Origin: Clostridia bacterium
GTDB lineage: Bacteria > Bacillota > Clostridia > Oscillospirales > CAG-272
Assembly: GCA_017387685.1 (NCBI GenBank)
Contig: JAFOEU010000098.1
Location: 1 to 50,504 of the forward strand
DNA: 50,504 bases
Direction of reading: 5' to 3'
This document shows, in pieces, positions 1,864 to 43,140 of the stretch. Positions within the stretch are counted from its first letter, which is position 1. The number at the start of each line of letters is the position of its first letter. The notes below the pieces were generated by a model that did not search any database, was not told the origin of the DNA, and saw only the letters and a program-made list of their open reading frames with translations. Made by a program: the position numbers and the translations under genes.

Positions 1864-3381
1864 ATGACCGACACTAAAATCTGCCGACTCATCTCGGCTC
1901 TCCTTGACCACGCAGAAAATTGCGGAATGCTTGACTCCGCCGACCGCATCTACGCCGCAAACACTCTTTGCACAGAGCTTGGGCTCACAGCTTTTGAGGA
2001 TTACGTTTCCGTTGAGGAAAAGGGACTCCGTTTGCACGAAATTCTCGACGCGATCTGCGAATATGCGGTAGCCAATAATATTATTAATGAAGGAATTACC
2101 GCGCACGATCTCTTTGACACCAAGCTGATGGGCATTCTTATGCCCCGTCCGAGCGAGGTCACCGCGAAATTCTTTGAGCTTTACAAGAACGATCCAAAGG
2201 CGGCAAGCGACTACTTCTACCGTCTTTCGATCGATTCCAACTACATACGCGAGGATCGCGTGGAGAAGGACCGACGCTGGTCGGTCGATTCGAAATACGG
2301 CAAGATCGATATTTCGATCAATCTTTCCAAGCCCGAGAAGGACCCGAAGGACATCGCGGCGGCGAAGCTTGCGCCTCAGTCGGGCTATCCTAAGTGTCTG
2401 CTCTGTCCCGAAAACGTGGGTTATGCGGGACACGCGAACGCGCCTGCGCGACAGAATCTGCGCCAGATCCCCTTTACCCTTGGCGGAGACGAGTGGCTGC
2501 TTCAGTATTCGCCCTACGTTTACTACAACGAGCACTGCATCGCGCTCTCAAAGGCGCACGTTCCGATGAAGATCTGCCGCGCTACCTTCGAGCGTCAGCT
2601 TGACTTTGTCACCGAGCTTCCGCACTACTTCATCGGTTCGAATGCCGATATTCCGATCGTTGGCGGCTCGATCCTCTCGCACGACCACATGCAGGGCGGT
2701 TGCTACACCTTCCCGATGGAGCGCGCAGAGATCATTCTGCCCGTTAAATTTGAAAAATTCCCCGAGATCGAGGCAGGAATCGTCAACTGGCCGATGTCAG
2801 TTCTCCGTCTGCGCTCTGCAAACAAGGCGGCGCTCGTCGAGCTTGCCGATCAGATCCGTATCGCTTGGTCGGGCTATTCCGACGAGGCAAACGGCGTTGT
2901 TGCATTCACAGATGACGTACCGCACAACGCGATCACTCCCATCGCGCGCCGCCGCGGCGAGGACTTCGAGCTTGATCTCGTTCTCCGCAACAACCTCACA
3001 AGCGAGGAATTCCCGATGGGAATTTACCATCCGCACGCGGACAAGCATAATATAAAGAAGGAAAATATCGGTCTTATTGAGGTTATGGGACTTGCGATCC
3101 TTCCCGCGCGACTCAAAAAGGAGATGGCGCGCCTCGGCGAGATTATTCTTGCAGGCGGCGACGTCCGCGCCGATGCCGATTGCGAAAAGCACGCGGATTG
3201 GCTTGATAGCTTTAAGAGCAGCTACACCTTCACCGCAGAAAACGTCGAAGAGATCCTCTACGAGGAGATCGGCAAGACCTTCACCGCAGTTCTCGAGGAT
3301 GCCGGAGTTTATAAGGCAACCGACGAGGGACGCGCGGCGATGATGAAGTTCGTGGAATACGCCGGAGGCGTTAGTTGCTAA
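1864..3381 (+). CDS. galT: UDP-glucose--hexose-1-phosphate uridylyltransferase (Bacillota type)
   Basis: Leloir-pathway enzyme that exchanges UMP between UDP-glucose and galactose-1-phosphate. At 505 residues it is the long GalT form seen in lactobacilli and clostridia, not the roughly 350-residue enterobacterial form. It contains VGGSILSHDHMQGGCYTFP, which fits the family's active-site region, and a C-terminal GalT-type domain. I chose the ATG at 1864 rather than 1852 because GAGG at 1854-1857 is a good ribosome-binding site for 1864 and would lie inside the coding region of the earlier start. No galK or galE is adjacent. The stop codon TAA is itself part of a heptad repeat tract (see 3372-3520). 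Confidence 0.9.
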   Translation: MTDTKICRLISALLDHAENCGMLDSADRIYAANTLCTELGLTAFEDYVSVEEKGLRLHEILDAICEYAVANNIINEGITAHDLFDTKLMGILMPRPSEVTAKFFELYKNDPKAASDYFYRLSIDSNYIREDRVEKDRRWSVDSKYGKIDISINLSKPEKDPKDIAAAKLAPQSGYPKCLLCPENVGYAGHANAPARQNLRQIPFTLGGDEWLLQYSPYVYYNEHCIALSKAHVPMKICRATFERQLDFVTELPHYFIGSNADIPIVGGSILSHDHMQGGCYTFPMERAEIILPVKFEKFPEIEAGIVNWPMSVLRLRSANKAALVELADQIRIAWSGYSDEANGVVAFTDDVPHNAITPIARRRGEDFELDLVLRNNLTSEEFPMGIYHPHADKHNIKKENIGLIEVMGLAILPARLKKEMARLGEIILAGGDVRADADCEKHADWLDSFKSSYTFTAENVEEILYEEIGKTFTAVLEDAGVYKATDEGRAAMMKFVEYAGGVSC

Positions 3382-3520
3382 TATTAGTTGCTAGTTACTA
3401 GTCGCTAGTTGCTAGTTGAAGGTGAATTTTCGCCAAGGCGAAAATTTTCCTATAAAAATAAAAATATTTTCGCGACAGCGAAAATTTCCTATTCACTAGC
3501 AACTAGAAACTAGCAACTTG
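3372..3520. repeat. Family A element, full length (heptad ends, two inner palindromes)
   Basis: From the galT stop the order is: heptads AGTTGCT/AGTTACT with TAG every 7 bp; TTGAAGGTGAA; palindrome TTTTCGCCAAGGCGAAAA; an A/T-rich centre; a second palindrome (TTTTCGCGACAGCGAAAA); then the heptads in inverted orientation (CACTAGCAACTAGAAACTAG). The whole unit can fold into one long imperfect stem. The heptads begin inside the last codons of galT and supply its stop codon. Confidence 0.85.
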
Positions 3521-3578
3521 GCACTCGCAAAAGTCAAACATCCCAACAAAATTACTACCTTAAATAAAGGACAAACAT

Positions 3579-4694
3579 ATGCTTAAAATCCTCCACACCG
3601 GCGACTTCCACCTGGATTCGCCCTTCACCGGGGTCGATCTTCCAACCGGAGAGCGGCTTCGCAATGAACTTCGTAACATCTTTATAGACGTCGTCGAGCT
3701 GGCGGGCAGTCACGATATGCTGCTCATCGCGGGCGACCTTTTCGACTGCGGTTACGTCAGCCCCGACACGCTCGCGCTCGTTCGCGACAGTCTTGCGGCT
3801 TACGGCAAGCCCGTCGTCATTGCGCCCGGAAATCACGATCCCTATTCCCCCGGAAGCATCTGGACGGCGGTGGGGTGGCCCGAAAACGTACATATTTTTG
3901 ACAGCGACGAGCTTTCGGTCTTCAAGCTTGAATTGAACGGTCAGCGCGTTGCGGTTCACGGTTGGGCGTTCACCTCGCCCTCGCTTGAGCGTTCTCCGCT
4001 TTCGGACGGAATTATGATCGATCCCGCCGCGATCAACCTAATCTGCGCGCACGCGGACACCGTCTCGCCGATCTCGCGCTACGCGCCCACGCCCCTCGCG
4101 CTCTTTGCCACATCGGGATGTACTTACGCCGCGCTCGGACACATTCACAACGTCCCCGATATCACTCTCGCGGGACGCACGACTGTCTCGTACTGCGGTT
4201 TCCCCGAGGGTCGCTCCTACGATGAGGAGGGCGACGGCGGTGTGCTTTCGGTCGTGATTGAGGAAGGGCGTGCTCCCGTTATCGAAAAGCTTATCACCTC
4301 GACGCACAAATACATCACCCGTCACCTTGAGATCACGGGTGCTGACAGCGATTCCGAGGTCGCCGCGCGCATCATTGAGCTTGCGCGGAGTGAGAAATGC
4401 GACAAAAACGTGTCACTCAAGGTCTACCTTGAAGGCTCGATACCGCCCACTTACACTCCGAACGCGGCGCAGATCGAGCTGCTTGCGGGTCTTTCGCTCT
4501 GCTCATTGAAGCTCCGCGACCGCACAGCCCCCATCTTCGGCGCGGAATATCTTGAGGGGGATATGTCGATCAAGGGCGAGCTTTACCGCACTCTGTTGCC
4601 CCGTCTCGCCTCGCCCGACGAGGACGAGCGCCGCATCGCCGCGGACGCGCTCCGAATCGGTCTGCTCGCGCTTGAAGGCAGAGCCTTTATTTAA
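3579..4694 (+). CDS. YhaO-like DNA-repair metallophosphoesterase
   Basis: SbcD/Mre11-type calcineurin-like phosphoesterase, 371 residues, expected to act as the nuclease subunit with the ATPase encoded next. Metal-binding motifs are visible in order: GDFHLDSPF (Asp9, His11), GDLFDCG, GNHDPYSPG and later CAHADTV and LGHIHN. The ligands for a two-metal centre therefore look intact. The start has AAAGGA nine bases upstream. The stop is 12 bp from the start of the ATPase, so they are surely one operon. The role in DNA end processing is inferred from the family. Confidence 0.85.
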   Translation: MLKILHTGDFHLDSPFTGVDLPTGERLRNELRNIFIDVVELAGSHDMLLIAGDLFDCGYVSPDTLALVRDSLAAYGKPVVIAPGNHDPYSPGSIWTAVGWPENVHIFDSDELSVFKLELNGQRVAVHGWAFTSPSLERSPLSDGIMIDPAAINLICAHADTVSPISRYAPTPLALFATSGCTYAALGHIHNVPDITLAGRTTVSYCGFPEGRSYDEEGDGGVLSVVIEEGRAPVIEKLITSTHKYITRHLEITGADSDSEVAARIIELARSEKCDKNVSLKVYLEGSIPPTYTPNAAQIELLAGLSLCSLKLRDRTAPIFGAEYLEGDMSIKGELYRTLLPRLASPDEDERRIAADALRIGLLALEGRAFI

Positions 4695-4706
4695 GGAGGC
4701 GGCAAT

Positions 4707-7031
4707 ATGATTATAAGGAAGATAAATATTACCTCCTTCGGCACGCTCACGGACTTTACAGCCGAGCTTTCGGGAGGACTCAACATTATTTCGGGCGCAA
4801 ACGAATCGGGCAAGAGCACGATCCTTGCGTTTATTCGCTTCATCCTCTACGGTCTGCCCTCTCGCAGAAGTGAGGAGGGCGCACTCGAGCACGATCGCGC
4901 ACTTTCGTGGGAAAGCGGTCGTGCCGAGGGAAGCCTTGAGATCGAATGTGAAAAGGAATCCTATCGCATTGAACGCTCGGGAATCCGCTCCGACAACCGC
5001 GACGGTTACAGCGAAAAATGCCAGATCATCGACCTCTCCACGGGAAGCGTAGCTTTCAAGGGCGAGGTGCCCGGTCAGGTCTTTCTCGGGGTGCCCTCGG
5101 GCGTATGGGATTCGACCTCGTCCGTAAAACAGCAATCCCTCTCGTCGCTTTCGGGCAGCGAGATCGGTTCGTCCATTGAAAACATCCTCTTTTCCGCCGA
5201 TGAGGCGATATACACCGAACGCGCGCTGACCAGACTCAACACCGCGCGCCGTCAGTTCCGTCTTCAGCGCGGAAACGGCGGCAAGATCGCTGATCTGACC
5301 GCAGAGCGCGATGCTCTGCGCCAAAGACTCGCGCAGGCGGAGGAAGCTTCAAAAAATACTCTCGCGCTTCAATCTACGGTTGAACGCGCGCGAAAGCTCA
5401 CCGCCGAGCTTCGAACCAAGCTGACGGCGGCAGAGGACAGACTCCGCGCGTTTGAAACGATACAAACGCTCAAGCGTTTTGATATGCTCCACGCGGGCGA
5501 GGCGAAGGTCGCCGCGCTGACCGCAGAGCGCGATGCTCTGCTCGCGGAATACGGCTTCGAGGGCAGACTCCCCGACCGCGCCTACGTCGCTGAACTCGAT
5601 TCGCTTTCGCGCCGTCTTGCCGTGGCTGAAAGTGATGCCGCAAAAACCGCGGGCGAGCTTGCAGGTCTTCGATCCGATCAATCGGGCGACACGGTTCTTG
5701 CCGCGCGCGCCGACGATATAATCCGCACGGGCGGTCCCGAGGCGGTTGCAGACAAATACAAAAAGCTCCGATCCGCGGTCGGCAGGCGGCTCGCGTTCGG
5801 AATCATTCTTATGGTGCTCGGTATCGCACTCGCGGGCGCATCGCTCGCGGCATACTTCCTCGAGCTTCTCCCCGCACTGACGATGCAGTTTTCCTCCGGC
5901 ATTACCGTCGGCGGGCTCGTCGTTGCGCTGATCGGTCTTGCAATCACACTTTCATCCTCGCGAGCGCGCAAAAATGCGGAAAATTATCTCTACGACCTTG
6001 GCGTCGAGCACGATGGACGCGTAAAACGCCGGGATATCGTCGCGCACTCGGAGGCTTGCCTCAAGGCAAAGGACGAGATCGAAGAATTTTCAAGCAAGAT
6101 CGGTATGCTCGAGCGCACTCACGCTGATAAAAACGCAACCGTGATCGAGATCGTCGAGGCGGCAAAGAGCACACTCGCAGGCTTCGGCATTGAATGCGAA
6201 AACGCCAACATCGCCGAGCTCCTTGCGGCTACCTCTGAAAAATTCGCATCGGTTGCAGATCGCGGAGGCGAGCTGAACGCGGACATTGAAAAATACACGG
6301 CATCGGTTAACGATTCCCGCTCAAAGCTTGATGGGGCGGATGAAGCCGCGCTCCGCGCACATCTTTCCCCCGCCGCAAAATCCTTGCTCGATCTCGCAAA
6401 CCCCACGGCTCTCAAGCAGGAGCGCGACGAATATGCCGCACGCCTTGATGCGGCGCGCACACGTCTGCTCGAATCCGAGAAAAATCTCGGTATAATCGAG
6501 GGCACTTGCGAAAATCCGAACCGTCTCGCCGCCGAGCTTGAAGCCGCAGAAGCCGCTCTCGCAGAGGCAGAGGCAAAGCACGCGGCTATCGTTCTTGCTT
6601 ACGAGTCGATCCAGGGCGCGGGAGAAAGTCTGCGCCGCAACGTCACTCCGCGCCTTCGTTCAAACGCGGGAGCTCTTATGCGCCATCTGACGGGCGGAAA
6701 ATATTACGATTTCGGCATTTCCGAGGACTTTTCCCTCTCGATACTGACCGATTGCGGCACAAAGCCGATCTCCTCCCTCAGCGCAGGCACGCGCGACGCG
6801 GCGTATTTCTCGCTCCGCACCGCCCTCTCATCGATGCTCTTCCCCGCCGACCGTCCCCCGATGATCCTCGACGAGGTATTCGCCCAGCTCGACGACACCC
6901 GCGCAGAAAATCTTCTCGATCTTCTTTCAAAGATCGCGGATGAATCGCAGATCATAATCCTCACCTGCCACTCGAGAGAAGCGGAACTGCTCAGACAGAG
7001 CGAAAAAGATTTTTCGCTTATCACTTTATAA
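4707..7031 (+). CDS. YhaN-like SMC/Rad50-type ATPase
   Basis: Large ATPase partner of the upstream nuclease, 774 residues. The Walker A motif GANESGKST is at residues 30-38. The middle is long, Ala/Glu/Arg-rich coiled coil. Two hydrophobic segments lie at about residues 358-416, a known oddity of YhaN proteins that suggests membrane association. The C-terminus has the ABC signature-like SLSAGTRDAAYFSLR and Walker B MILDEVFAQLDD. Start ATG 4707 follows AAGGAGG. The pair fits the YhaN/YhaO complex, an SbcC/SbcD-like DNA-processing machine; biochemical activity is inferred. Confidence 0.85.
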   Translation: MIIRKINITSFGTLTDFTAELSGGLNIISGANESGKSTILAFIRFILYGLPSRRSEEGALEHDRALSWESGRAEGSLEIECEKESYRIERSGIRSDNRDGYSEKCQIIDLSTGSVAFKGEVPGQVFLGVPSGVWDSTSSVKQQSLSSLSGSEIGSSIENILFSADEAIYTERALTRLNTARRQFRLQRGNGGKIADLTAERDALRQRLAQAEEASKNTLALQSTVERARKLTAELRTKLTAAEDRLRAFETIQTLKRFDMLHAGEAKVAALTAERDALLAEYGFEGRLPDRAYVAELDSLSRRLAVAESDAAKTAGELAGLRSDQSGDTVLAARADDIIRTGGPEAVADKYKKLRSAVGRRLAFGIILMVLGIALAGASLAAYFLELLPALTMQFSSGITVGGLVVALIGLAITLSSSRARKNAENYLYDLGVEHDGRVKRRDIVAHSEACLKAKDEIEEFSSKIGMLERTHADKNATVIEIVEAAKSTLAGFGIECENANIAELLAATSEKFASVADRGGELNADIEKYTASVNDSRSKLDGADEAALRAHLSPAAKSLLDLANPTALKQERDEYAARLDAARTRLLESEKNLGIIEGTCENPNRLAAELEAAEAALAEAEAKHAAIVLAYESIQGAGESLRRNVTPRLRSNAGALMRHLTGGKYYDFGISEDFSLSILTDCGTKPISSLSAGTRDAAYFSLRTALSSMLFPADRPPMILDEVFAQLDDTRAENLLDLLSKIADESQIIILTCHSREAELLRQSEKDFSLITL

Positions 7032-7038
7032 TAAAAAG

Positions 7039-7070: not shown

Positions 7071-7105
7071 AGCTTACTGACAAAGTATCAATATTATCAA
7101 TCCAC

Positions 7106-13050: not shown

Positions 13051-13195
13051 GAGTGCAGAATGCAGAGTGCAGAGTGCAGAGTTATGGTAACTTTTCGCCG
13101 AGGGCGAAAAGTGATTTTATTCAAATCCGAAAATTTTCGCCAAAGGCGAAAATTCACCTTCAACTAGCAACTAATAACTAGCAACTAGTAACTTT
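13051..13195. repeat. Family A element with two kinds of heptad
   Basis: The left end is four copies of a different 7-bp unit (TGCAGAG/TGCAGAA). The right end is the AGTTACT-type heptad in inverted orientation, ending 1 bp from the GDPD stop codon. Between them are two palindromes (TTTTCGCCGAGGGCGAAAA and TTTTCGCCAAAGGCGAAAA). Confidence 0.85.
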
Positions 13196-13945
13196 TTACG
13201 CTATTGGCGTAAAAACGCAATTTGACGGCTGATAATCGAGTCCGAGGTCGATCATCTCGCGCAGCTTTTCGCGTGTATCCGCCGCGCGCATGCAGATGCG
13301 GAGGTCGCGCTCGTGCAGGTCGCCGATGATGCCATCGGGCAGATCGGCAGAGTCAGCGATCTTGAGCGAAAGTCCCGCGTAGCCGAGGTCGCAGAGCGCG
13401 TCATAGTGCTTTTCCTTGGCAAATATCAGATGTACGAATATCTCGGGCGAAAGTCTTCTCGCCTCGGCGATATAATCGAATTTTACCGAAGAAGCAACCG
13501 CGTAATCGAGCATTCCCCGTCTGCGCAGGCTCTTTATTGCCGCCTCAACTCCCTCGGGGGTCTTAAACTCGATAAAAGGCACGCATCCGTAGCGCATACA
13601 AACGTCAAGATACTCCTCAAAGGTAGGCACGCGGAGCTGATCCTCGGGCAGCTTGTCCGCGCCGACGCCCTTATTGATACGCGCACGGCGGACTTCATCG
13701 AAGGTCATTTCCTCAATAATTCCCTCGTTATCCGTCATTGTGGCAAGCGTACTGTCATGCATACAGACCGCCACGCCGTCGCGTGTCAAGTGGATATCCG
13801 TCTCGATCGCCCACACGCCCATCCTCGCAACCGTCTCAAAGGCGGGTAACGAATTCTGCGGCGCGTAATTATTACAGCCTCTGTGCGCTATAATAAGCGG
13901 TCGGCGGTATGAATTTCTCTCGTGAAAAATGGGTCCTGTCTGCAT
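13196..13945 (-). CDS. Glycerophosphodiester phosphodiesterase (cytoplasmic)
   Basis: TIM-barrel GDPD that hydrolyses glycerophosphodiesters to glycerol-3-phosphate and an alcohol. Key residues are present: His21-Arg22 in IIAHRGCN, Glu48 and Asp50 in AIETDIHL, and His63-Asp64 in CMHDST. It has 249 residues and no signal peptide. AAGGAG lies 8 bp before the start. It is one of three GDPD proteins in the window and stands alone between the DJ-1 operon and the divergent MATE gene. Confidence 0.9.
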   Translation of the reverse strand: MQTGPIFHERNSYRRPLIIAHRGCNNYAPQNSLPAFETVARMGVWAIETDIHLTRDGVAVCMHDSTLATMTDNEGIIEEMTFDEVRRARINKGVGADKLPEDQLRVPTFEEYLDVCMRYGCVPFIEFKTPEGVEAAIKSLRRRGMLDYAVASSVKFDYIAEARRLSPEIFVHLIFAKEKHYDALCDLGYAGLSLKIADSADLPDGIIGDLHERDLRICMRAADTREKLREMIDLGLDYQPSNCVFTPIA

Positions 13946-18830: not shown

Positions 18831-18871
18831 ATCTCGGATATTTCGAAGCCTCGTAATATCCGAGATTTTTC
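18831..18871 (+). terminator. Terminator after the serpin gene
   Basis: The stem ATCTCGGATATT / AATATCCGAGAT is followed by TTTTTC. Confidence 0.85.
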
Positions 18872-24016: not shown

Positions 24017-25741
24017 ATGCCGATCTTGCATAAACTTAAAAAACTCACCGCGGGAGCGATCGCGGTGCTTTGCCTGCTTTCAACCGTGGTGATTTTTGCG
24101 CCCGATGCTTCTGCCGTTGCGCCGACGTATAACGTCAGCAGCCAATACAAAAGCACAAATTATTACAAGGCGCTCACCGATTACACGCTCACGGGCGACG
24201 AGAGATTTGACGTCGTTTCGATCGCTATGACACAGTACGGCTATCACGAGGGCAACTCGGAAGACGATATGGACGGCGCAAACCTTGACGGACACAAAAA
24301 TTTTGCCGAATATAACCGTATGTACGGCAAGCTCGACAACAACGAGGGCAACGGATTGAGCTACGGATACTCGTGGTGCGCATCCTTTGTTTCGTGGTGT
24401 CTTCGTCAGGCGAGAGTTCCCACCTCGACTGTTGAGACCTTCGTTTCCTGCTCAAAGGCAGTCCGTAATTTCCGCACGCAGGGCATCTTCAAGGAAGCCT
24501 CGAGCGGATATATTCCCCGGGCGGGCGACATAATCTTCTTCGTCACTCCCGAGGAGAAGGCTAACGGATATATCTCGAGCCACGTCGGTCTCGTCATCGG
24601 CACCGACAGCGGATTTATCTACACCATCGAGGGCAACACCGATAACTATTACGTTTGTCAGAAATCCTACGCCTATGATAACGAAAAGCTCGTCGGCTTT
24701 GCAGTTCCCGATTATAAGACCGTTGAGGGTATGGTTTATGATTTTCCGCAGAAGACGGATATGAAATTCCCCGGCAACTACACGGTTACCAAGGAAGATC
24801 TCGCCGTTTGCAGTGAGTCGGAAAATTATGAAACCGCACTCGGCTATCTCAGTGCCGGCGACAATGTTGAGGTCAAGGAGGTCGTCCTCGGATGGGGCCT
24901 TATAGACTATGACGGTGCGGAGGGCTGGATCTACCTTTACCACGCCGAAAGAGAGCAGCTTCGCATAAAGCTTGACGGAAACGGCGGAATCCCCTCGATT
25001 TCGTATCACAACAAGGATATCGGAGTCGGACTCGAGCTTGCCACCCGTATGCCGCGCCGCGACGGATATACTCTCGCGGGCTGGTCGACTGTCCCGGGCG
25101 GCGGAGTTGAGCTTCTGCCCGAATCGCTCTATGAAACCGATGCTGAAACGACGCTTTACGCCGTTTGGAAGCCGATTGAATACACCGTTGAGTTTGTCGA
25201 TTACGACGGAACGCGCATCTCGATCAACCAATACCCCTACGGCGCAGCGCTCATCCTTCCCGTTTCTCCGACAAGACCCGCAGATTCGCAGTTCTCATAT
25301 GAGTTTTCGGGTTGGGACAAGCAGGTTGATCAGACGGTAACGGGCGATGCCGTCTACCACGCGACCTATAAAGCAACGCTTCATCCCGTAACCACCGCGC
25401 CCGAAACAACGGTCGCTCCCCCCGTCACCACCGCGCCCGAAACAACGGCAGAGGTGACCACCGCGGCGCCCGAAACGACCGTGGCACCCGAGGTCACTAC
25501 CGAGCCTGAGGTCACGACCGAGCCCGAGGTCACTACCGAACCCGAAGTCACGACCGAACCCGAGATCACGACCGAGCCCGAGATCACGACCGAGCCCGAG
25601 GTTACAACTGCCAAACCCGCGGTCAAGGAGGAAGAAACTCTTCCGCCCCTGCTCCTCAGCGGATGCAGATCGACGGTTGCGATGCCGATCTTCACCGTTC
25701 TCGCCATCGCCGCAATAATCTTCAAAAAGAAAAGAATATAA
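24017..25741 (+). CDS. Secreted CHAP-domain surface protein with C-terminal anchor
   Basis: Likely cell-wall amidase or endopeptidase, 574 residues. Signal peptide 1-33. CHAP/NlpC-like domain about 60-235, with Cys121 in GYSWCASFVSWCLR, His189 in SSHVGLVIG and Glu205 in IEGN as the probable catalytic set. An SH3-like part (about 255-310) follows, then two Listeria-Bacteroides-type repeats (about 316-455, including AGWSTVPGGG and YAVW). A Thr/Pro/Glu stalk with repeated TTEPEV comes next. The C-terminus is GCRS, a hydrophobic helix and KKKRI, with no LPXTG. The start follows GGAGG. It is monocistronic, with promoter and terminator. Confidence 0.85.
   Translation: MPILHKLKKLTAGAIAVLCLLSTVVIFAPDASAVAPTYNVSSQYKSTNYYKALTDYTLTGDERFDVVSIAMTQYGYHEGNSEDDMDGANLDGHKNFAEYNRMYGKLDNNEGNGLSYGYSWCASFVSWCLRQARVPTSTVETFVSCSKAVRNFRTQGIFKEASSGYIPRAGDIIFFVTPEEKANGYISSHVGLVIGTDSGFIYTIEGNTDNYYVCQKSYAYDNEKLVGFAVPDYKTVEGMVYDFPQKTDMKFPGNYTVTKEDLAVCSESENYETALGYLSAGDNVEVKEVVLGWGLIDYDGAEGWIYLYHAEREQLRIKLDGNGGIPSISYHNKDIGVGLELATRMPRRDGYTLAGWSTVPGGGVELLPESLYETDAETTLYAVWKPIEYTVEFVDYDGTRISINQYPYGAALILPVSPTRPADSQFSYEFSGWDKQVDQTVTGDAVYHATYKATLHPVTTAPETTVAPPVTTAPETTAEVTTAAPETTVAPEVTTEPEVTTEPEVTTEPEVTTEPEITTEPEITTEPEVTTAKPAVKEEETLPPLLLSGCRSTVAMPIFTVLAIAAIIFKKKRI
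25440..25620 (+). repeat. Coding tandem repeat, TTEPEV stalk
   Basis: An 18-bp unit encoding TTEPEV or TTEPEI is repeated in-frame about six times after looser TTAPET-type copies. Synonymous differences between units (gag/gaa, acg/act) show it is not brand new. Copy number is likely to vary between strains. Confidence 0.8.
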
Positions 25742-25825: not shown

Positions 25826-25905
25826 ACAAAATTATCGCAGTAAAATTTTCGCTCCGCGAAAATTTACCTTTCACCAGCAACCGGCAACCAGTAACCAGTA
25901 ACTTT
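25826..25905. repeat. Family A half element (diverged heptads)
   Basis: Starting at the dehydrogenase stop and reading leftwards: heptads of the form GTTACTG/GTTGCCG (a decayed AGTTRYT), then GAAAGGTAAA and the palindrome TTTTCGCGGAGCGAAAA. At its far end is AAATTATCGCAGTA, shared with the repeats at 47.5 and 50.5 kb. Confidence 0.75.
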
Positions 25906-27000: not shown

Positions 27001-27067
27001 GGAAATTTCCGCAAAGCGGAAATTCACCTTTAACTAATAACTAACAACTAATAACTAATAACTTTTC
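27001..27067. repeat. Family A half element
   Basis: Directly after the GH2 stop (reading leftwards): heptads AGTTATT/AGTTGTT with TAG every 7 bp, TAAAGGTGAA, then the palindrome TTTCCGCTTTGCGGAAA. Confidence 0.85.
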
Positions 27068-29090: not shown

Positions 29091-29428
29091 GTGCGAACAT
29101 AGCGTTCTCGGTGTCCCCTCATCACCCTCTGCGGAGGGAGCTTCTCCCAGGAGAAGCCTTAGGACAAGGCTGATGCCTTGCGTGAAATATTTCTCCTATG
29201 GAGAAATGTGAAATTTTTGCTCCGCAAAAGTGAAATTCACGCTTCGCGTGAGTGAAATATTCCGCTAAAGCGGAATGTTAAGGAGGAAATTTGCTGAAGC
29301 AAATTTCAATTTTTATAAAATTAATGTAGCTGAACATAAAATTCGCAGTTCTAAACCTTAGGCTTCTCCTGGGAGAAGCTCCCTCCGCAGAGGGTGATGA
29401 GGGGACACCGAGTGTGCTATGTTCGCAC
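29091..29428. mobile_element. 338-bp inverted-repeat element with a hairpin chain inside
   Basis: The arms 29107-29159 and 29360-29412 are perfect 53-bp inverted repeats. With the outer GTGCGAACATAG ends (13/16 match) the arms reach 69 bp. Each arm holds two small hairpins (CCCTCTGCGGAGGG and CTTCTCCCAGGAGAAG). The inside contains the family B chain at 29164-29308. No transposase is encoded, so it would depend on functions supplied elsewhere, if it moves at all. Confidence 0.75.
29164..29308. repeat. Family B hairpin chain nested in the inverted-repeat element
   Basis: Hairpins ATTTCTCCTATGGAGAAAT, TTTTGCTCCGCAAAA, TCACGCTTCGCGTGA and ATTCCGCTAAAGCGGAAT are joined by a constant GTGAAAT spacer. 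The chain ends in GTTAAGGAGG and AAATTTGCTGAAGCAAATTT. Confidence 0.8.
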
Positions 29429-31249: not shown

Positions 31250-31359
31250 CCGCCTTCGGCGGAGTTATAATCTCGCTTCGCGAGAGTGATAATCTGCTTC
31301 GCAGAATGATAATTTGCCTTCGGCAAAATGAAGGTAGATTTTCGCCGCGGCGAAAATCT
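31250..31359. repeat. Family B hairpin chain, clearest example
   Basis: Five hairpins in a row: CCGCCTTCGGCGG, TCTCGCTTCGCGAGA, TCTGCTTCGCAGA, TTTGCCTTCGGCAAA and the terminal AGATTTTCGCCGCGGCGAAAATCT-type palindrome (31336-31359). The spacers are AGTTATAA, GTGATAA, ATGATAA and ATGAAGGT. The arms differ in each unit but always pair. Several spacers contain the double stop TGATAA. Confidence 0.85.
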
Positions 31360-31380
31360 TTGAAATTATAGTAAAAACAA

Positions 31381-31416
31381 GTGCAAACAAAGCGTTCTTG
31401 ACGCCTATGTTCGCAC
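31381..31416. repeat. Hairpin of GTGCGAACATAG-type motifs
   Basis: GTGCAAACAAAGCGT pairs with ACGCCTATGTTCGCAC around a short loop. The outer motif is the same one found at the ends of the inverted-repeat elements. Confidence 0.65.
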
Positions 31417-31433
31417 TTGTTTTTTATTTATTG

Positions 31434-31493
31434 AAAATTTTCGCTTGCGAAAATTTACCTTCAACTAGTAACTAGCAACTAGCAACTAGCAAC
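31434..31493. repeat. Family A half element
   Basis: From the cyclophilin stop, reading leftwards: four AGTTGCT/AGTTACT heptads with TAG every 7 bp, TTGAAGGTAAA, and the palindrome TTTTCGCAAGCGAAAA. The stop TAA runs straight into the first heptad. Confidence 0.85.
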
Positions 31494-31997
31494 TTACTCT
31501 ACCACTCTGATGCTCTCGATGACAACGCTCTCACGGGGAACGTCAGCCATATAGAATCCGAGAGTTCCGGTCTTGACGGATGCGATGAGGTCGATCACCT
31601 CAAGTCCCTCGATGACCTTGCCGAAGCCCGCGTACTGCGCGTCGAGGTGGGGGGAATCCTTGTGCATAATGAAGAACTGCGAGGATGCAGAGTCGGGATC
31701 GGAGGTACGAGCCATGGAAAGCACGCCCTTGGTATGCTTAAGATCATTCTGAACCCAACCGTTAGCCGCGAACTCACCCTTGATCGAGGGAGCTTCCTTG
31801 TGCTCAAACTGCGCATTGTATCCGCCGCCCTGAATCATAAAGCCCTTGATAACGCGGTGGAAGATGAGTCCGTCGAAGAAATTCTCGCCGATGAGCTTGA
31901 GGAAATTCTCAACCGTCTTGGGCGCAAGCTTGGGATAAAGCTCCGCCTTCATAGTGCCGAAGTTTGTTACTTTGATTTCAATAATAGGATTTGCCAT
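31494..31997 (-). CDS. Peptidyl-prolyl cis-trans isomerase, cyclophilin type
   Basis: Protein-folding catalyst that isomerises X-Pro bonds, 167 residues, single domain, no signal peptide and so cytoplasmic. It has the family core LAPKTVENFLKLIGENFFDGLIFHRVIKGFMIQGGGY with the catalytic Arg in FHRV, and later LSMARTSDPDSASSQFFI and LDAQYAGFGKV. AAAAGGAAA lies before the ATG. It stands alone, about 150 bp from mrnC. Confidence 0.93.
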   Translation of the reverse strand: MANPIIEIKVTNFGTMKAELYPKLAPKTVENFLKLIGENFFDGLIFHRVIKGFMIQGGGYNAQFEHKEAPSIKGEFAANGWVQNDLKHTKGVLSMARTSDPDSASSQFFIMHKDSPHLDAQYAGFGKVIEGLEVIDLIASVKTGTLGFYMADVPRESVVIESIRVVE

Positions 31998-32081: not shown

Positions 32082-32143
32082 GGAAAATTTTCGCCTTGGC
32101 GAAAATTCACCTTACCTCTGCCCTCTGCCCTCTTACCTCTGCA
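32082..32143. repeat. Family A half element with a different heptad
   Basis: From the mrnC stop, reading leftwards: heptads GCAGAGG/TAAGAGG/GCAGAGG, then TAAGGTGAA and the palindrome TTTTCGCCAAGGCGAAAA. The 7-bp period, position next to a stop codon, and terminal module are the same as in the AGTTRYT copies although the unit sequence is unrelated. Confidence 0.8.
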
Positions 32144-32527
32144 CTACCGCAGGTCGGGATACCCAATATCGAGCAGCTCGTTCATCCTCTGCGTGTCGCC
32201 ATCTAAATAGAGCTGCCCAAACAAGGTCTCCACTCCCGTCGCGCGGCGGTATTCGCTGACGGACGCGCTCTTTGGCGTATTCTTACCGTGACCGAGATTT
32301 CGCCCGCGCTTGTAGGTTGCTTCTTCGGCTTCGGTGAGATGCGGGAGCATTCGCTCGAGTGCCTCGCTCTGTGCCGTTGCCTTGACGTAGGCAAGGGATG
32401 CGTTATTCAGCCGCTTCGACGAGCAAAGTCCCGATCGAACAAGCCTTTCACGAATCAGCACCTCCATCGCCGCGTCGCCGAGGTAGGCGAGTGCTTCTAC
32501 GGCGATCACGCCGCCACTCTCACTCAA
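32144..32527 (-). CDS. mrnC: Mini-ribonuclease 3
   Basis: RNase III-type domain without the double-stranded-RNA-binding domain; it matures 23S rRNA in Bacillota. The 127-residue length is right for the family. Motifs: LAYLGDAAMEVLIRERL with catalytic Asp18, then KRGRNLGHGKNTPKSA and YRRATGVETLFGQLYL. The start is TTG, 5 bp after GGAGG, and overlaps the end of the upstream SGNH gene by 8 bp, so it is translationally coupled. In many Bacillota mrnC sits next to cysS; here the neighbours are carbohydrate-esterase-like genes, which is unusual. Confidence 0.88.
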   Translation of the reverse strand: MSESGGVIAVEALAYLGDAAMEVLIRERLVRSGLCSSKRLNNASLAYVKATAQSEALERMLPHLTEAEEATYKRGRNLGHGKNTPKSASVSEYRRATGVETLFGQLYLDGDTQRMNELLDIGYPDLR

Positions 32528-37622: not shown

Positions 37623-40376
37623 TTAGTCTTCCTTCTTTTTAATAATAAGTACAGCCGCGGGAATGAGCGCGAGGATGGAGAGCGAGATCATCGAACCGCA
37701 ACCCTTTTCCTCTGCGGGCTCGGTCTCGGGAGCAGATGTGCCTACGGGTGCTTCTGTAACCGCGGGAGCCTCGGTGGTCACCTCTTCGGTGGTCTCGGGG
37801 ATGGGCTCAGCCTCGACGTTCTCGGTTGCGAGGATAACGGGAGTTACGGTGTAGTAGGAGGTTCCGTTCGAGAGTGTCTTTTTAAGCTTGAAGAAGAAGC
37901 CTTCCGCGCCATCGGAAAGGGTAACGTAACCGTCCTTATAGGTTCCCGTACCGCCGATGACAACAAGCTCTGCCTTAGCCGAGCCCGCGTTGTTGCCGGC
38001 GTAAGTAACGGCATTCAGAACGAGCTTGCCGCTTTCGTCAAAGGAAGCGGTGAAATCCTCAACGTATGTGCCCGCCCACTGGGAGTAGTTGGTGGTGATA
38101 CCGCGGATACCGCTGATGAAGAAGGAGTTGAAGGCATCCTCCTTGTTGACGGTCCAGTTCCAAAGGGTTACGCCGCGGACGGCAAGATCTGTATAGAGAT
38201 TGATACCGAGAGTACCCGAGCTCTGGCTAGGCGAATACGCGGTATTTATCGGGATCACTTCCGAAAGAACGTCCTGTGCTATTGTAAGGCTTCTTTGCTC
38301 GTTGGCGGTGATAGCGCTTGTGAGGAAGTTGATCGAAAGATTGGGGTTCGCCGCGCGCATTGCCGTGATCATCGACTTATTGAACGCGATGACAACGACC
38401 TGACGCTCCATACCGTATTTTTTGATAAGCTTTGTAAGAGGCTCGGCGATCTTTGTGTTGCTGCCCTTGAGCTCGACTACAAGAACCTCGCCCGTGCCCT
38501 TGAATCTCTCAAAATAGTCATCGAGAAGCGGGATGGGCTCAGGCGCAACGCCTGACTTGGAGTCTACCTGGAACTTCTTGATCGTCTCTGCGGTCATATC
38601 GACGGTGTTACCCTCACCGTTTGTGGTTCTGTCGATAGTTCCGTCGTGCATAACGATGATATTTCCATCCTTCATAAGGTAGACATCGTTTTCAACCATC
38701 GTCGCGCCGAGTCTGAACGCCTCAACCGAGCCCGCAACGGTGTTTTCCTGCTGTGTCGAGGGGTTTCCGCGGTGACCGATGATCTCGGGTGTGCGGACGA
38801 GGGTGTTTTTATCGTAATATTTGGTGAAGCAAGCCTCTGTCGCCTTGACGTCGGGAGTGATCAGACCGAGCACGCCGTTATTGATCGCGCTGACGGCGGA
38901 AACATCCTTTTCGGTGATCGCCTGCCATACGACGAGGTATCTGTCCTGAAGATAGGAAACAAAATCGCGTGATGCAATATCGGTGGCAGAGCTCATGATC
39001 GCGCCACGCGCGCCTGCCTCGATACAGCGAGCTCGAAGCTCCTCGGCGTCCCAGATATTTCCGGTAGTGTCGAACATAGCGTAGACTCTATTGTTCTTTG
39101 AGCGCACCTGCTGGATGATCTGAGTGCTCGACGAGATAATATAAAGGTCGGGGAGCTCGAGAGATGCCACGTATTTTGCGAACGCCTCAGCCTCAGGCGA
39201 GGTTTCAATGCGGAACGCGGGAATAACGCGATCGCAGATCGTAATATCGGAAAGCTTGACAAACTTTTTGTCGAGTGTAACGCCGAGCTCATTTCCCTCG
39301 ACCTCGCATTCAAAGATCGCGATAGAAGGAAGAGTCGTCTCGAGTGCCTTCAGCTGCTCGGTGGTGGCTATCTCTGTGATAAGCGCGGGCTCAAGAGCTA
39401 TGTTGGATTCGGGATCGCGTGTGTCGTGGAGCTGAGGTCTGGGTCTTGAAACCTTGCTTCCGAGATTGACAGTGATCTTTACGCTGTCAACGGTAAGGCG
39501 TGCGCCGCGAACCTGAAAGCCCATTGCACCCGCGTCATAGGGGGTATTAGTTTCTGTGAGATAGGTCTTTCCGTTTACCGTGCTTGTTGCTGTGCTTCCG
39601 CAGAAGTTTACAGTAACGTCAAAGTACGAGCCGCCGGTGATGCCGGTAACGGGGCCCTTCTTCGTTACGCTCCAAGCGTCCGACGCAGTACGCTCCGCGA
39701 TCTCAAGACCGTTCGATGCCGAAATATCGTATCTGAATGCATTCTGAACGTAGGGGATCTTCTTGCCCGCGGGATCCTGAAGGCGGAAGATCAGCGCGCC
39801 GTAGCGGCCCGTGGAGGTCTGCTTGGTGATCTTTACGCGCGCAGAATAGCTCGCGTCGCCAAAGGCGTCAAGATAGGAGGGGAGAAGCACGCGCATATGG
39901 CTCGCGCCATCGTTTGAGGCGTCAAGATAGATCGCGCCCTCAGCTTCATCGTAGCCAAAGGTGGTACCTGCGGGCTGCTGAATTATGCGGAACTTCGAAA
40001 GGTCGGGCTTTGCGGAATAATCGTCCTCATAAAGAACGTATTCGCTCTCGCCCTCATTCTTCGCAACGACGTAGACCGTCTTCGACTTGCCGTTTGCGGT
40101 TGCGGTCAGGGGATAAACGCCCTTTTCCGCGGGGGTGTATGCGGTGACGGTATTATTGCCGTCCTTCCAAACTATATCAGCGGGAGCTGTGAGATTTGCG
40201 CCTGCTTCAAACTGAACGCTTACCTTGGTAAGATCGACCGCCTTGCCCGCATCCGTGCAGATCGCGGGGCTCGAGAAGCCTACCTCAATCTCACCCGCCG
40301 CAGAAGCAGGCACAGCCGAGAGAAGCATCGGCAGAAGCATTAGTACGCATAAAACTGTTGCGAAAATTCTTTTCAT
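37623..40376 (-). CDS. Large surface-anchored glycerophosphodiesterase
   Basis: A 917-residue secreted protein. Signal peptide 1-26 (PASA). About 30-110 is beta-rich. About 115-305 looks like a laminin-G/DUF1080-type domain. About 345-525 resembles a degenerate GDPD-like barrel without the catalytic residues. About 530-800 is an intact GDPD domain, with His535-Arg536 in IIGHRGN, Glu562 and Asp564 in VENDVYL, and His577-Asp578 in MHDGT. The C-terminus is a Thr/Glu stalk, GCGS with Cys893, a hydrophobic helix and KKKED. ATG 40376 follows GGAGG and starts the signal peptide. First gene of the operon with nadE. It could release glycerol phosphate from teichoic acid or lipid head groups. Confidence 0.87.
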   Translation of the reverse strand: MKRIFATVLCVLMLLPMLLSAVPASAAGEIEVGFSSPAICTDAGKAVDLTKVSVQFEAGANLTAPADIVWKDGNNTVTAYTPAEKGVYPLTATANGKSKTVYVVAKNEGESEYVLYEDDYSAKPDLSKFRIIQQPAGTTFGYDEAEGAIYLDASNDGASHMRVLLPSYLDAFGDASYSARVKITKQTSTGRYGALIFRLQDPAGKKIPYVQNAFRYDISASNGLEIAERTASDAWSVTKKGPVTGITGGSYFDVTVNFCGSTATSTVNGKTYLTETNTPYDAGAMGFQVRGARLTVDSVKITVNLGSKVSRPRPQLHDTRDPESNIALEPALITEIATTEQLKALETTLPSIAIFECEVEGNELGVTLDKKFVKLSDITICDRVIPAFRIETSPEAEAFAKYVASLELPDLYIISSSTQIIQQVRSKNNRVYAMFDTTGNIWDAEELRARCIEAGARGAIMSSATDIASRDFVSYLQDRYLVVWQAITEKDVSAVSAINNGVLGLITPDVKATEACFTKYYDKNTLVRTPEIIGHRGNPSTQQENTVAGSVEAFRLGATMVENDVYLMKDGNIIVMHDGTIDRTTNGEGNTVDMTAETIKKFQVDSKSGVAPEPIPLLDDYFERFKGTGEVLVVELKGSNTKIAEPLTKLIKKYGMERQVVVIAFNKSMITAMRAANPNLSINFLTSAITANEQRSLTIAQDVLSEVIPINTAYSPSQSSGTLGINLYTDLAVRGVTLWNWTVNKEDAFNSFFISGIRGITTNYSQWAGTYVEDFTASFDESGKLVLNAVTYAGNNAGSAKAELVVIGGTGTYKDGYVTLSDGAEGFFFKLKKTLSNGTSYYTVTPVILATENVEAEPIPETTEEVTTEAPAVTEAPVGTSAPETEPAEEKGCGSMISLSILALIPAAVLIIKKKED

Positions 40377-40407
40377 AGTTGTCCTCCGTATAGGAAATGT
40401 CGTGTTT

Positions 40408-40436
40408 CTATTGGGTGCGAACCCGCCACCCAATAG
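40408..40436 (-). promoter_or_regulatory. Hairpin in the leader of the large GDPD gene
   Basis: CTATTGGGTG and CACCCAATAG pair perfectly around a 9-nt loop between the promoter and the ribosome-binding site. No T-run follows, so it is not a simple terminator. It may protect the 5' end or bind a regulator. Confidence 0.5.
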
Positions 40437-40458
40437 AATACAAACAATTATTTATTAT

Positions 40459-40487
40459 ATTATATAACATTTCTTCTCCCCAGTCAA
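40459..40487 (-). promoter_or_regulatory. Promoter of the GDPD-nadE-HAD-DUF559 operon
   Basis: On the minus strand TTGACT (40487-40482), a 17-bp spacer and TATAAT (40464-40459). Confidence 0.75.
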
Positions 40488-40507
40488 TGAAAATTTCAAA
40501 AAAAGCA

Positions 40508-40536
40508 TTGATTTTCCTTCAATTATGTGATAATAT
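40508..40536 (+). promoter_or_regulatory. Promoter of the FAD-dependent oxidoreductase
   Basis: TTGATT (40508-40513), a 17-bp spacer and TAATAT (40531-40536). It diverges from the GDPD promoter. Confidence 0.55.
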
Positions 40537-40578
40537 ATAATTAGAAAAATATGCTTTTTAAAATAAAGGAGCAAGACA

Positions 40579-41949
40579 ATGAAAAATTATGACGTTATTA
40601 TAATCGGCGCGGGTCCCGGCGGTATTTTTACTGCGTATGAGCTCAATAAGCTCTCCCCCGAGCTCAAGGTTGCCGTTCTTGAAACGGGCGCACCCCTCGC
40701 GGAGCGCAAGTGCCCCATCGACGGCAAGAAAATAAAGTCCTGCATCGGATGCAAGTCCTGCGCTATTATGAACGGCTTCGGCGGCGCGGGCGCGTTCTCG
40801 GACGGTAAATACAACATCACCACCGAATTCGGCGGCACTCTTCACGAATATATCGGCAAGGAAGAGGCGATCGACCTGATGAACTATGTCGATACCATCA
40901 ACCTCTCCCACGGCGGCGAGGGCACAAAGCTCTACACCACCGCAAATTCCCAGCTCAAAACCAAGTGCCTGCAGAACGGACTCCACCTGCTCGATGCATC
41001 CGTCCGCCACCTCGGCACGGACGTAAACTACATCGTGCTCGAAAACCTCTACAACAAGCTCTCCCCCACCGTTGATTTCTACTTCCGCACACCCGCAAAG
41101 GACGTTGAAAAGATCGAGGGCGGCTACCGCGTTAACACCAAGGATGAAACCTTTGAGGCACCCATCTGCATCATTTCGGCGGGCAGATCGGGCAGTAAGT
41201 GGATGGAGAAGGTCTGCGATGACCTCGCGATCCCCACAAAGTCGAACCGAGTTGACATCGGCGTCCGCGTTGAGCTCCCCTACGAGATCTTCGCGCACCT
41301 GACCGACGAGCTTTACGAATCGAAGATCGTCTACCGCACCGAGAAATTCCGCGATCTCGTCCGCACCTTCTGTATGAATCCGCGCGGCGCGGTCGTTAAC
41401 GAGAACACAAACGGCATCGTCACCGTAAACGGCCACAGCTACGAGGACCCCGCAAAGCACACGGGCAACACCAACTTCGCGCTGCTCGTTTCAAAGCACT
41501 TCTCGCACCCCTTCAAGGATTCGAACGGCTACGGCGAGAGCATCGCGCGCCTTTCGAATATGCTCGGCGGCGGAGTTATGGTTCAGCGCTTCGGCGACCT
41601 CATCCGCGGTCAGCGCTCGAATGAAAAGAGAATGTCGGACTCCTTTGTCCGTCCCACCCTTCAGGCGACCCCCGGCGACCTCTCCCTCGTCATCCCCAAG
41701 CGAATCCTCGACGGCATCATCGAGATGATCTACGCCCTCGATAAGATCGCCCCCGGCACCGCAAACGATGACACCCTGCTCTATGGCGTCGAGGTCAAGT
41801 TCTATAATATGGAGGTCGACACCGACAACCACCTCCAGACCTGCCACGAAAACCTCTTCGTAATCGGCGACTGCGGCGGAACAACCCACTCCCTCTCGCA
41901 GGCATCGGCAAGCGGAGTGTGTGTAGCGAGGTATATCGCTTCGCGATAG
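40579..41949 (+). CDS. FAD-dependent oxidoreductase (COG2509-like)
   Basis: A 456-residue flavoprotein of the BFD-independent 'FAD-dependent dehydrogenase' type. The N-terminal dinucleotide fold is VIIIGAGPGGIFTAYEL (GAGPGG at 10-15). A Cys-rich stretch, CPIDGKKIKSCIGCKSC, is followed by FGGAGAFSDGKYN, typical of this group. A second FAD contact near the C-terminus is LFVIGDCGGTTHSLSQAS. The physiological substrate is not known for the family. AAAGGAGC precedes the ATG. It is monocistronic. The stop TAG is the first TAG of a heptad tract. Confidence 0.87.
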   Translation: MKNYDVIIIGAGPGGIFTAYELNKLSPELKVAVLETGAPLAERKCPIDGKKIKSCIGCKSCAIMNGFGGAGAFSDGKYNITTEFGGTLHEYIGKEEAIDLMNYVDTINLSHGGEGTKLYTTANSQLKTKCLQNGLHLLDASVRHLGTDVNYIVLENLYNKLSPTVDFYFRTPAKDVEKIEGGYRVNTKDETFEAPICIISAGRSGSKWMEKVCDDLAIPTKSNRVDIGVRVELPYEIFAHLTDELYESKIVYRTEKFRDLVRTFCMNPRGAVVNENTNGIVTVNGHSYEDPAKHTGNTNFALLVSKHFSHPFKDSNGYGESIARLSNMLGGGVMVQRFGDLIRGQRSNEKRMSDSFVRPTLQATPGDLSLVIPKRILDGIIEMIYALDKIAPGTANDDTLLYGVEVKFYNMEVDTDNHLQTCHENLFVIGDCGGTTHSLSQASASGVCVARYIASR

Positions 41950-42145
41950 TTGCTAGTTACTAGTTGCTAGTTGAAGGAAGATTTCCTCACTTCGTTCGGA
42001 AATCTGAATTTTAAATAAAAACCTCGGATACCGCAAAATGCGATATCCGAGGTTTTATTATATAGGAAGATTTTCGCCTCAGCGAAAATCAACCTTTAAC
42101 TAGCAACTAGCAACTAGTAACTAGTAACTGTCGCGAAGCGACAAT
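41947..42145. repeat. Family A full element between two convergent stops
   Basis: Heptads with TAG every 7 bp start at the FAD-gene stop; inverted heptads end close to the tpiA stop on the other strand, with one small hairpin (GTCGCGAAGCGAC) between. Inside are GAAGGAAGA, AGATTTTCGCCTCAGCGAAAATC and the terminator at 42018-42056. Both ends of the same element therefore serve a stop codon. Confidence 0.85.
42018..42056. terminator. Terminator inside the family A element
   Basis: AAAACCTCGGATA / TATCCGAGGTTTT with a loop around GCAAAATGC. Strong stem with T-runs on both strands; it can serve the FAD gene and tpiA. Confidence 0.85.
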
Positions 42146-42913
42146 TTACTGTGCCGCGTTTACGATAGCAGCGAACTTCTCGGGAACGAGGGATGCGCCG
42201 CCGATAAGACCGCCGTCTACGTCGGGCTTTGCAAGAAGCTCTGCAGCGTTAGCGTCGTTCATAGATCCGCCGTACTGGATGGTTACGGACTCTGCAACCT
42301 CTTCGCCGTAAAGACCTGCAACTACCTTACGGATAACTGCGCAAGTCTCCTGTGCCTGCTCGGGGGTAGCGGTGAGGCCGGTGCCGATTGCCCAAACGGG
42401 CTCGTATGCGATGATTACGTTCTTGAGCTCCTCAGCGGTGATACCTGCGAGGTCGAGCTTGGTCTGCATGCCAACAACCTCATCGGTGATGCCTGCAAGT
42501 CTCTCTTCCTTAACCTCACCGAGGCAGAGGATAACCTTCATGCCTGCTGCAAGAGCAGCCTTGGTGCGGAGGTTAACGGTCTCGTCGGTCTCTGCGAAGT
42601 ACTGACGTCTCTCGGAGTGGCCTACGATAACGTACTCAACGCCGATAGCGCGGAGCATTTCAGCGGAAACTTCACCGGTGTACGCGCCCTTGGGTGCGAA
42701 GTGAACGTTCTCAGCGCCGATCTTGATATTAGTGCCCTCTGCTGCTTCCATAGCTGCCGCGATGGTTACGTAGGGAGCGCAGAAAATGATGTCGCAATTG
42801 TCCTTGCCTGCAACGAGGGGAGTTACGTTCTTAATGAACTCACGTGCCTCTGCGGGGGTGAAATTCATCTTCCAGTTGCCTGCGATTACTGTTCTTCTCT
42901 TTGCGGGATTCAT
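42146..42913 (-). CDS. tpiA: Triosephosphate isomerase
   Basis: Glycolytic enzyme that interconverts glyceraldehyde-3-phosphate and dihydroxyacetone phosphate, 255 residues. Lys15 in GNWKMN, His in VIVGHSERR, the catalytic Glu in IIAYEPVWAIGTG, and IQYGGSMNDANA plus GGLIGGASL in the phosphate-binding loops are all present. AAAGG precedes the ATG. It lies downstream of pgk on the same strand, but a 227-bp gap with a family A element separates them, so the usual gap-pgk-tpi operon is broken. Confidence 0.96.
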   Translation of the reverse strand: MNPAKRRTVIAGNWKMNFTPAEAREFIKNVTPLVAGKDNCDIIFCAPYVTIAAAMEAAEGTNIKIGAENVHFAPKGAYTGEVSAEMLRAIGVEYVIVGHSERRQYFAETDETVNLRTKAALAAGMKVILCLGEVKEERLAGITDEVVGMQTKLDLAGITAEELKNVIIAYEPVWAIGTGLTATPEQAQETCAVIRKVVAGLYGEEVAESVTIQYGGSMNDANAAELLAKPDVDGGLIGGASLVPEKFAAIVNAAQ

Positions 42914-42990
42914 ATGTTTATCCTACCTTTCAAAAATTACAAATTAATTTAGATAGCTGAAATTGGTATATTTCGGTGCGAGGACCGAGG

Positions 42991-43140
42991 TTTTTAGTTG
43001 TTAGCAGTTAGTTTTTAGTTGTTAGTTGAAGGTAGAAATTTTCTCGCAAGCTCGAAAATTATTTCAATAAAAATGAAAATTTCCGAACGAAGTGAGGAAA
43101 TTCTCCTCCAACTAATAACTAACAACTAATAACTAAAAAC
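42991..43140. repeat. Family A full element between pgk and tpiA
   Basis: The right end has heptads AGTTATT/AGTTGTT directly after the pgk stop; the left end has inverted heptads (AGTTGTTAGCAGTTAG, AGTTTTT). Inner palindromes are TTTTCTCGCAAGCTCGAAAA and TTTCCGAACGAAGTGAGGAAA, with AAGGTAGAAA next to the first. Confidence 0.85.

Follow-up and report, generated by a model that had tools for sequence, protein, structure and literature searches.

What are the short elements that end in tandem heptanucleotides and lie directly at stop codons in a gut Clostridia genome, and how did they come to occupy this position? The question arises from the window, i.e. the whole 50,504-nucleotide stretch of DNA analysed here (contig JAFOEU010000098.1 of assembly GCA_017387685.1). 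A sequence-only reading had described eight such elements there, next to the stop codons of nine genes. It proposed either a repeat that inserts beside stops or a selected all-frame translation stop combined with 3'-end structure. We confirm the stop-linked heptad pattern and find it far outside the window as well. We interpret the elements as non-autonomous repeats that resemble repetitive extragenic palindromic (REP) sequences and REPINs and that occupy gene 3' ends; we put the probability of this interpretation slightly above one half, at about 0.55.

Read along the gene, a half-element consists of the stop codon, about four heptads (7-bp units), the motif RAAGGTRAA or its variant, which constitutes the foot of a hairpin, and the hairpin itself. 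Part of the copies are mirrored pairs, composed of two halves in mirror image, and those of convergent gaps mostly hold a bidirectional intrinsic terminator at their centre. The GTAG/CGTC tetranucleotide of two large REP superfamilies is absent from the hairpin foot. In the window, all eight elements and all nine genes were found as described: galT, the genes at 13196, 25906, 27068, 31494 and 32144, a gene for an FAD protein (41949), the triosephosphate isomerase gene TIM (42146) and the phosphoglycerate kinase gene PGK (43141). The order of stop, heptads, AAGGTRRA-like motif and palindrome is true of every stop-side array. The repeat tract indeed supplies the stop of galT (TAA, 3379-3381) and of the FAD gene (TAG, 41947-41949); the array at the TIM stop is 16 bp away. 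Of the element starts listed in that reading, those at 13051 and 42991 are START-facing ends, with a start codon at 37 and 94 bp, respectively; the arrays abutting stops are the opposite ends of these two elements (13161-13193 and 43110-43141).

The sequence read comprises 800,064 bases, approximately 31% of the 2.58 Mb, 116-contig genome G000 (85% complete), in which the window is contig C97. Since the stretches were partly picked for repeat-search matches, with stop positions ignored in choosing, element densities are not genome averages. Our own hexamer model called 670 genes, covering 87% of this sequence. We found 80 array ends adjoining the core motif, of which 76 were analysed after removal of two wrong-strand and two contig-edge rows; statistics on unit counts, stops in reading frames and G runs concern 78 arrays. 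All 80 midpoints lie outside called genes or at most 10 bp within them, and dispersed, extragenic short palindromes, a trait of REPs and REPINs, are thereby present (80 ends in 800 kb). The ends are distributed over 54 gaps, 21 with ends in both orientations and 33 with a single orientation, some of the latter containing a decayed second half.

The feature nearest to the outside of the array is a stop codon for 55 of the 76 ends (STOP-facing) and a start codon for 21 (START-facing). Within -13 to +10 bp, a stop is found for 44 of the 55 STOP-facing ends, and a start for one of the 21 START-facing ends. Random intergenic points fall into this range in 3.0% (stop) and 2.7% (start) of cases, and halves placed uniformly in their own gaps would yield 5.0 of 55 in range. 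Enrichment over random positions is therefore strong, in a fixed orientation. Nor are copies equally common near starts: among gaps of at least 120 bp, elements occur in 20/37 convergent, 29/152 tandem and 1/68 divergent ones. The stop precedes the array within 10 bp, sharing at most one base with it, in 40 of 55 cases and lies inside the array in four, so arrays that terminate open reading frames (ORFs) do not account for the linkage.

The same placement is seen in other genomes. In stretches from related genomes, many of them fetched because of their repeat matches, 17 of 25 stop-side ends lie in the -13 to +10 bp range and six ends face a start. In G015, which belongs to another genus of the same family, 13 of 16 arrays are stop-side, at a distance of up to 5 bp for six and of 13-55 bp for the others; this sample derives from the first 30 of 76 pattern matches (16 non-overlapping loci), obtained with TGCARAR only. 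Three consecutive AGTTRYT units were detected in 4/59 genomes searched, G000 included, and three TGCARAR units in 6/59, namely five of 13 genus members and G015. The carriers are G000, G004, G008, G009, G012 and G015; eight genus members lack the units searched for. A scan with the AGTTRYT-core pattern retrieved four stretches from two Clostridia genomes (yak colon, goat cecum), possibly with omission of records close to G000.

We compared 16 stop-side ends with orthologous gene ends in the relatives G004, G009, G012 and G008, in 29 comparisons judged by eye. The relative carries an array in 20 of them, 16 times of another unit family and four times of the matching one. Nine sites lack an array (at one, PGK of G009, a remnant may persist), so that sites with and without the repeat both exist. 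For example, the end of the 27068 gene bears a half-element in G000 and is element-free in G004, where 26 bp separate it from the following start. At the stop of gene 32144, units are of GGCAGAG type in G000, TGCAGAG in G009, TGAAAAG type in G012 and AGTTRYT in G004, and those of G000, G009 and G012 each stand 30 nt ahead of AAGG. On contig C48, at 100251, the bases after TAA are four GTGRCTA units in G000 and four ATGCAAA-type units in G004, in identical phase. Because the heptads vary both among elements and among related species, their precise sequence probably matters little. Some arrays of the relatives (AGTGGAC and AAATGCA types) adjoin inner sequences other than RAAGGTRAA, which indicates that array and core form modules with some independence of each other.

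The observations under our interpretation are the anatomy of the elements, their favoured number of units, dispersal across 54 different gaps, sites with and without them, stop-side placement and change of units between species. Such repeats would be spread by an enzyme acting in trans, and their retention at gene 3' ends may be due to tolerance of insertions in the few bases past a stop. At convergent ends, the element would act as terminator of both genes, and in operon gaps a terminator-less form would be kept. The heptad array might be an end module, maintained in period and length and free to change in sequence. As to the proposal of a repeat inserting next to stops, placement, orientation, occupied and empty sites in relatives and scarcity near starts agree with it as far as location is concerned.

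Distribution of terminators bears on this scheme. Convergent gaps of at least 60 bp contain a strong hairpin with a T-run in 21/21 cases when an element is present. Mirrored pairs with ends in both orientations have a strong terminator in 9/9 convergent and only 2/12 tandem gaps (Fisher p 0.0002), and one of the two tandem terminators is a fold through the array itself. Contig C57, which carries purine-biosynthesis genes, has three mirrored pairs in tandem gaps with no true strong terminator. The suggestion of 3'-end structure thus holds for convergent mirrored pairs, but not for most tandem ones. Tandem gaps with one-ended elements have a strong terminator in 8/20 cases. In the window, a strong terminator is present farther downstream of the dehydrogenase-gene half-element (25843..25902). 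Eleven of the 12 CTCGGATA..TATCCGAG stems found lie within 330 bp of an array (the exception is at window position 18831), hence this bidirectional terminator seems to be part of the element.

Several points speak against our interpretation. Tolerance alone fails to explain why stops are abutted on both sides of convergent gaps, and mobility is deduced from presence and absence between species. A target-site duplication, the mark of a MITE, was found in none of six strictly defined mirrored pairs; there is one 7-bp candidate, at element 27001. Strong terminators are also found in 23/27 convergent and 92/180 tandem gaps free of elements, and under a looser test terminator-like hairpins accompany 48/55 element stops and 85/120 control stops (sampled from 234); terminators as such are thus not special to elements. 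No mover was found either. G000 and G012 gave no match to Y1 transposases (PF01797) or reverse transcriptases (PF00078), and none of the 13 genus genomes (72-97% complete) contains TnpB; since genomes are incomplete, the weight of this absence is weak. Among the carriers, a single Y1 gene is present in each of G004 and G009; it lies beside palindromes of its own, and the 2 kb of flank read are free of heptads; G009 has in addition two reverse-transcriptase matches, and G015 one weak Y1 match.

RAYT, reverse transcriptase and TnpB were accordingly set aside as movers, no candidate being present in G000; no RAYT-type Y1 gene was found in G000, G008 or G012, all of them incomplete genomes. Nine proteins from element-dense contig C57 and from C78, which carry purine-biosynthesis genes, were scanned; eight gave matches, none to a transposase. 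The Y1 genes of G004 (L127, contig C75) and G009 (L128, contig C128) are flanked by inverted GTAG-headed palindromes, perhaps REPINs of their own.

We wondered if the stop codon itself could be the target. Site-specific insertion at the stop or its A/T-rich bases (TA|AGTT) would mean targeting rather than filtering, and we regard it as possible, with the odds against it. The commonest offset is that in which stop and first unit share one base (d=-1, 13/55), and several species have arrays at corresponding stops. Among 55 strictly matched ends from G000 and relatives, T occupies flanking position -2 in 27 and A position -1 in 30, C being rare. However, flanks of START-facing and post-terminator ends are comparably A/T-rich, so that the target may be merely A/T-rich, and in short tandem gaps, such as the 26-bp gap of G004, the little space between stop and ribosome-binding site forces proximity.

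The arrays keep to one period and, for the most part, to one length. In 99,026 intergenic bases we found 67 period-7 tracts and 0-1 tracts of every other period from 4 to 12; Markov-shuffled copies (n=20) contained 0-1 period-7 tracts apiece. Counted back from the core, the number of units is four at 53 of the 78 ends, five at 11, three at nine, two at three, and six and seven at one each. The G015 arrays comprise exactly four units in 13/16 and three in 3/16 cases, with at least three required by the search. Runs of three G are missing from 69 of the 78 arrays, and the longest G run is a single base in 50 of 58 AGTTNNN arrays; formation of G-quadruplexes is consequently an unlikely reason for the number four in G000, and for AGTTRYT or TGCARAR units it cannot apply. 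We also considered the array as a spacer holding the hairpin off the terminating ribosome and do not favour it, as START-facing arrays are equally long.

It is conceivable, though doubtful, that a four-unit 7-bp module follows stops in unrelated phyla (the Clostridia studied here and, according to the literature, Xanthomonas and Nostoc), with its sequence rewritten in concert and its position, phase and length unchanged, and that selection or copying acts on period and length instead of on sequence or G-quadruplex potential. If so, there would exist a hitherto unknown process that writes or homogenises heptad arrays, or else a function that reads their geometry only.

Less probable still is that the arrays are ordinary microsatellites, changed by slippage and homogenisation in place, with no need for mobility. 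Some loci do look this way. Between G000 and G012, the TIM element has its flanking hairpin and last partial unit in common, its inner units differ and their number falls from four to three. Cores at orthologous ends, ranked against all 78 cores of G000, take ranks 4, 4, 2, 2, 41, 1, 16 and 25, i.e. 1-4 in five of eight, as fits inherited cores with changed arrays. These ranks are suggestive rather than decisive; they would favour in-place change at some loci and allow re-insertion at others. On the contrary, the narrow copy number (2-7), shared by the unit families and seen again in another genus, the near absence of tracts with other periods and the recurrence of identical unit families at many loci are not expected of microsatellites.

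The all-frame stop, with 3' structure, is largely contradicted and very improbable: it would account for stops in all three frames of 57/58 AGTTNNN arrays, as foreseen for three units, and for the tract supplying the stop in 4/55 cases as well as, judged by eye, at galT, but 15/17 arrays of the TGCAGAG/GGCAGAG group are stop-free in every frame (2/17 stop all three), such stop-less units are equally frequent at stops (8/10 stop-side ends in range vs 35/44 with stop-containing units), stop-less TGCARAR arrays abut stops in G015 too, and the 21/76 START-facing ends have arrays of unchanged kind.

Positions of the element parts in the window (strand +, - or undirected)
Positions	Strand	Feature
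3372..3417	+	Heptad array (AGTTRYT type, imperfect in its first units) that provides the TAA of galT
3418..3446	+	galT element, core GAAGGTGAA and hairpin AATTTTCGCC-AA-GGCGAAAATT
3465..3525	-	Mirrored half of the galT element, with hairpin; array on the right decayed
13054..13082	+	Left-hand array (TGCAGAG units, stop-free in every frame) of mirrored pair; START-facing, 37 bp from start
13083..13158	.	Centre of the same pair, between arrays 13054 and 13161: hairpins 13090-13112 and 13132-13154, A/T linker
13161..13193	-	Right array, unit AGTTRYT, 2 bp off the stop of gene 13196-13945(-)
25843..25902	-	Half-element at stop of dehydrogenase gene 25906: array 25873-25902 (GTTRCTG), core, hairpin 25843-25865
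27004..27063	-	Half-element (array 27031-27063, core, hairpin 27004-27024) at stop of GH2-type gene 27068
31463..31494	-	Array at stop of peptidylprolyl isomerase gene 31494; TAA and first heptad share one base
31377..31456	.	Peptidylprolyl isomerase element: terminator stem of AAGTGCGAACATAGGCG.. type in the centre, flanked on either side by T-runs; core hairpin 31435-31456
31254..31360	.	Peptidylprolyl isomerase element, far end: mosaic of short hairpins and heptad-like spacers in alternation, followed by core hairpin
32086..32142	-	Half-element at stop of gene 32144-32527: array 32115-32142, unit GGCAGAG
41947..42129	.	Mirrored pair in the gap where the FAD gene and TIM converge: (+) array 41947-41973, (-) array 42098-42129; stem of bidirectional terminator 42021-42053
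42990..43028	+	START-facing left array of the PGK-TIM gap, AGTTRTT type, one end of a mirrored pair
43110..43141	-	Right array, fused to PGK stop TAA; tandem gap without strong terminator

Mosaics of hairpins and heptad-like spacers (AGTGATA, AATGGTT and GTTAAGR types) occur at window positions 31254-31330, beside the peptidylprolyl isomerase gene in the relatives G004 and G009, and at the G012 ortholog of C48:158749; they look like hairpins inserted between heptads. The arrangement at 31254-31330 resembles what Elhai et al. reportedly saw in Nostoc in 2008, small dispersed repeats (hairpin elements) lying within tandem heptamers. An ORF of about 110 codons lies between two heptad ends at C48:100251-100836 of G000 and is missing from the G004 ortholog. 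Gene adjacencies are broken in relatives at 4/29 tandem elements vs 24/43 other gaps of at least 60 bp; at convergent elements they are broken in 14/14 cases with tiny controls (1/3 and 2/2), and rearrangement hot spots are not claimed.

The window contains other repeated or structured sequences. A second family of short repeats (ATATCGTGCCGAAGG type) is found at 44450-44492 and 48177-48244, with similar stretches in G012, and an 18-nt repeat in 6.4 copies (25487-25602) lies inside gene 24017-25741. The product of gene 32144-32527 (127 aa) has no NCBIfam match. The sole Rfam match in the window, away from the elements, is to Gut-1 RNA (RF01706) at 29180-29263 (+), with 51.1 bits where the gathering score is 50.

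Finally, we compared the elements with known systems. The statement that no stop-linked form of heptanucleotide repeat was known is contradicted by the literature: the stop link itself is already published, for heptamers (Rehm et al. 2015, PMC4692102) and for palindromic repeats (PMC3733652). Rehm et al. describe G-rich heptamers, GGGAATC in Xanthomonas and GGGGA(C/T)T in Nostoc PCC 7120, in arrays of 2 to 26 units. Four units are preferred in both, and the coincidence with the four G-tracts of a G-quadruplex is noted. Largely intergenic, they are under-represented between divergent ORFs and, downstream of an ORF, lie for the most part 0-50 bp from its stop and on the coding strand, with overlap in some cases. 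Convergent inverted pairs number 70 and 75 in two Xanthomonas genomes; Nostoc has few inverted pairs and leans to the non-coding strand. The Clostridia elements are alike in period, in preference for four units (53/78), in proximity to stops (44/55) and in avoidance of divergent gaps (1/68). In contrast, their units are of many sequences, mostly free of the G-tracts and G-quadruplex trait of those heptamers, and change at orthologous stops, and they have the RAAGGTRAA-hairpin core and central terminators, unmentioned in the passages of that paper on its heptamers.

REPs, bacterial interspersed mosaic elements (BIMEs) and REPINs, according to PMC3733652, PMC3116915 and PMC12306157, are small hairpins that occur singly or as mirrored doublets between convergent and between unidirectional genes, near ORF 3' ends in two genomes studied, and may supply a stop codon; by one tool, only 446 of 4,072 E. 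coli REPs lie within 15 nt of a stop (PMC12306157). The Clostridia elements share with them the dispersed extragenic palindromes, the singlet and mirrored-doublet forms and the location at gene 3' ends. They differ from them in having no GTAG/CGTC head, in heptads outside the hairpins and in the lack of a RAYT found in G000.

TAACTGA heptamers of Beggiatoaceae (MacGregor 2015, PMC4679880) occur in 2-6 copies in the genome studied there, place stops in every frame and lie in that genome mostly just ahead of start codons. The heptads are similar, the reverse complement rotating to AGTTATC, but the Beggiatoaceae copies stand mainly before starts, and the word palindrome is absent from the text of that paper.

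Trichormus plasmid A (350 of 366 kb) has 11 period-7 tracts, three of them in genes, and otherwise 0-2 tracts for each period from 5 to 12. Some four of them touch or adjoin the stop end of a gene, too few for statistics, and no AAGG-hairpin core was seen in the stretches inspected. At 190679-190708 (L174 40679-40708), four heptads (AGTTATT and three times AGTCATT) overlap the end of feoB. Between this array and feoC lies CAAAGGATAAAA, likely also the feoC ribosome-binding site, in an arrangement much like that of Clostridia.

A literature search retrieved no description of heptad-ended palindromic elements in Clostridia, and our claim of novelty is limited to that. What is surprising is less the stop link than the constancy of period, number and position despite changing unit sequence. 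Relative to the known systems, stop-linked heptamers are extended to Clostridia and joined there to REP-like hairpins and repeated bidirectional terminators. The preference for four units is found with units unable to form G-quadruplexes, which removes, for these elements, the one account of the number four met with in the literature consulted. With several unit families, six carrier genomes and orthologous gene ends, they offer a comparative system for asking why seven and why four.

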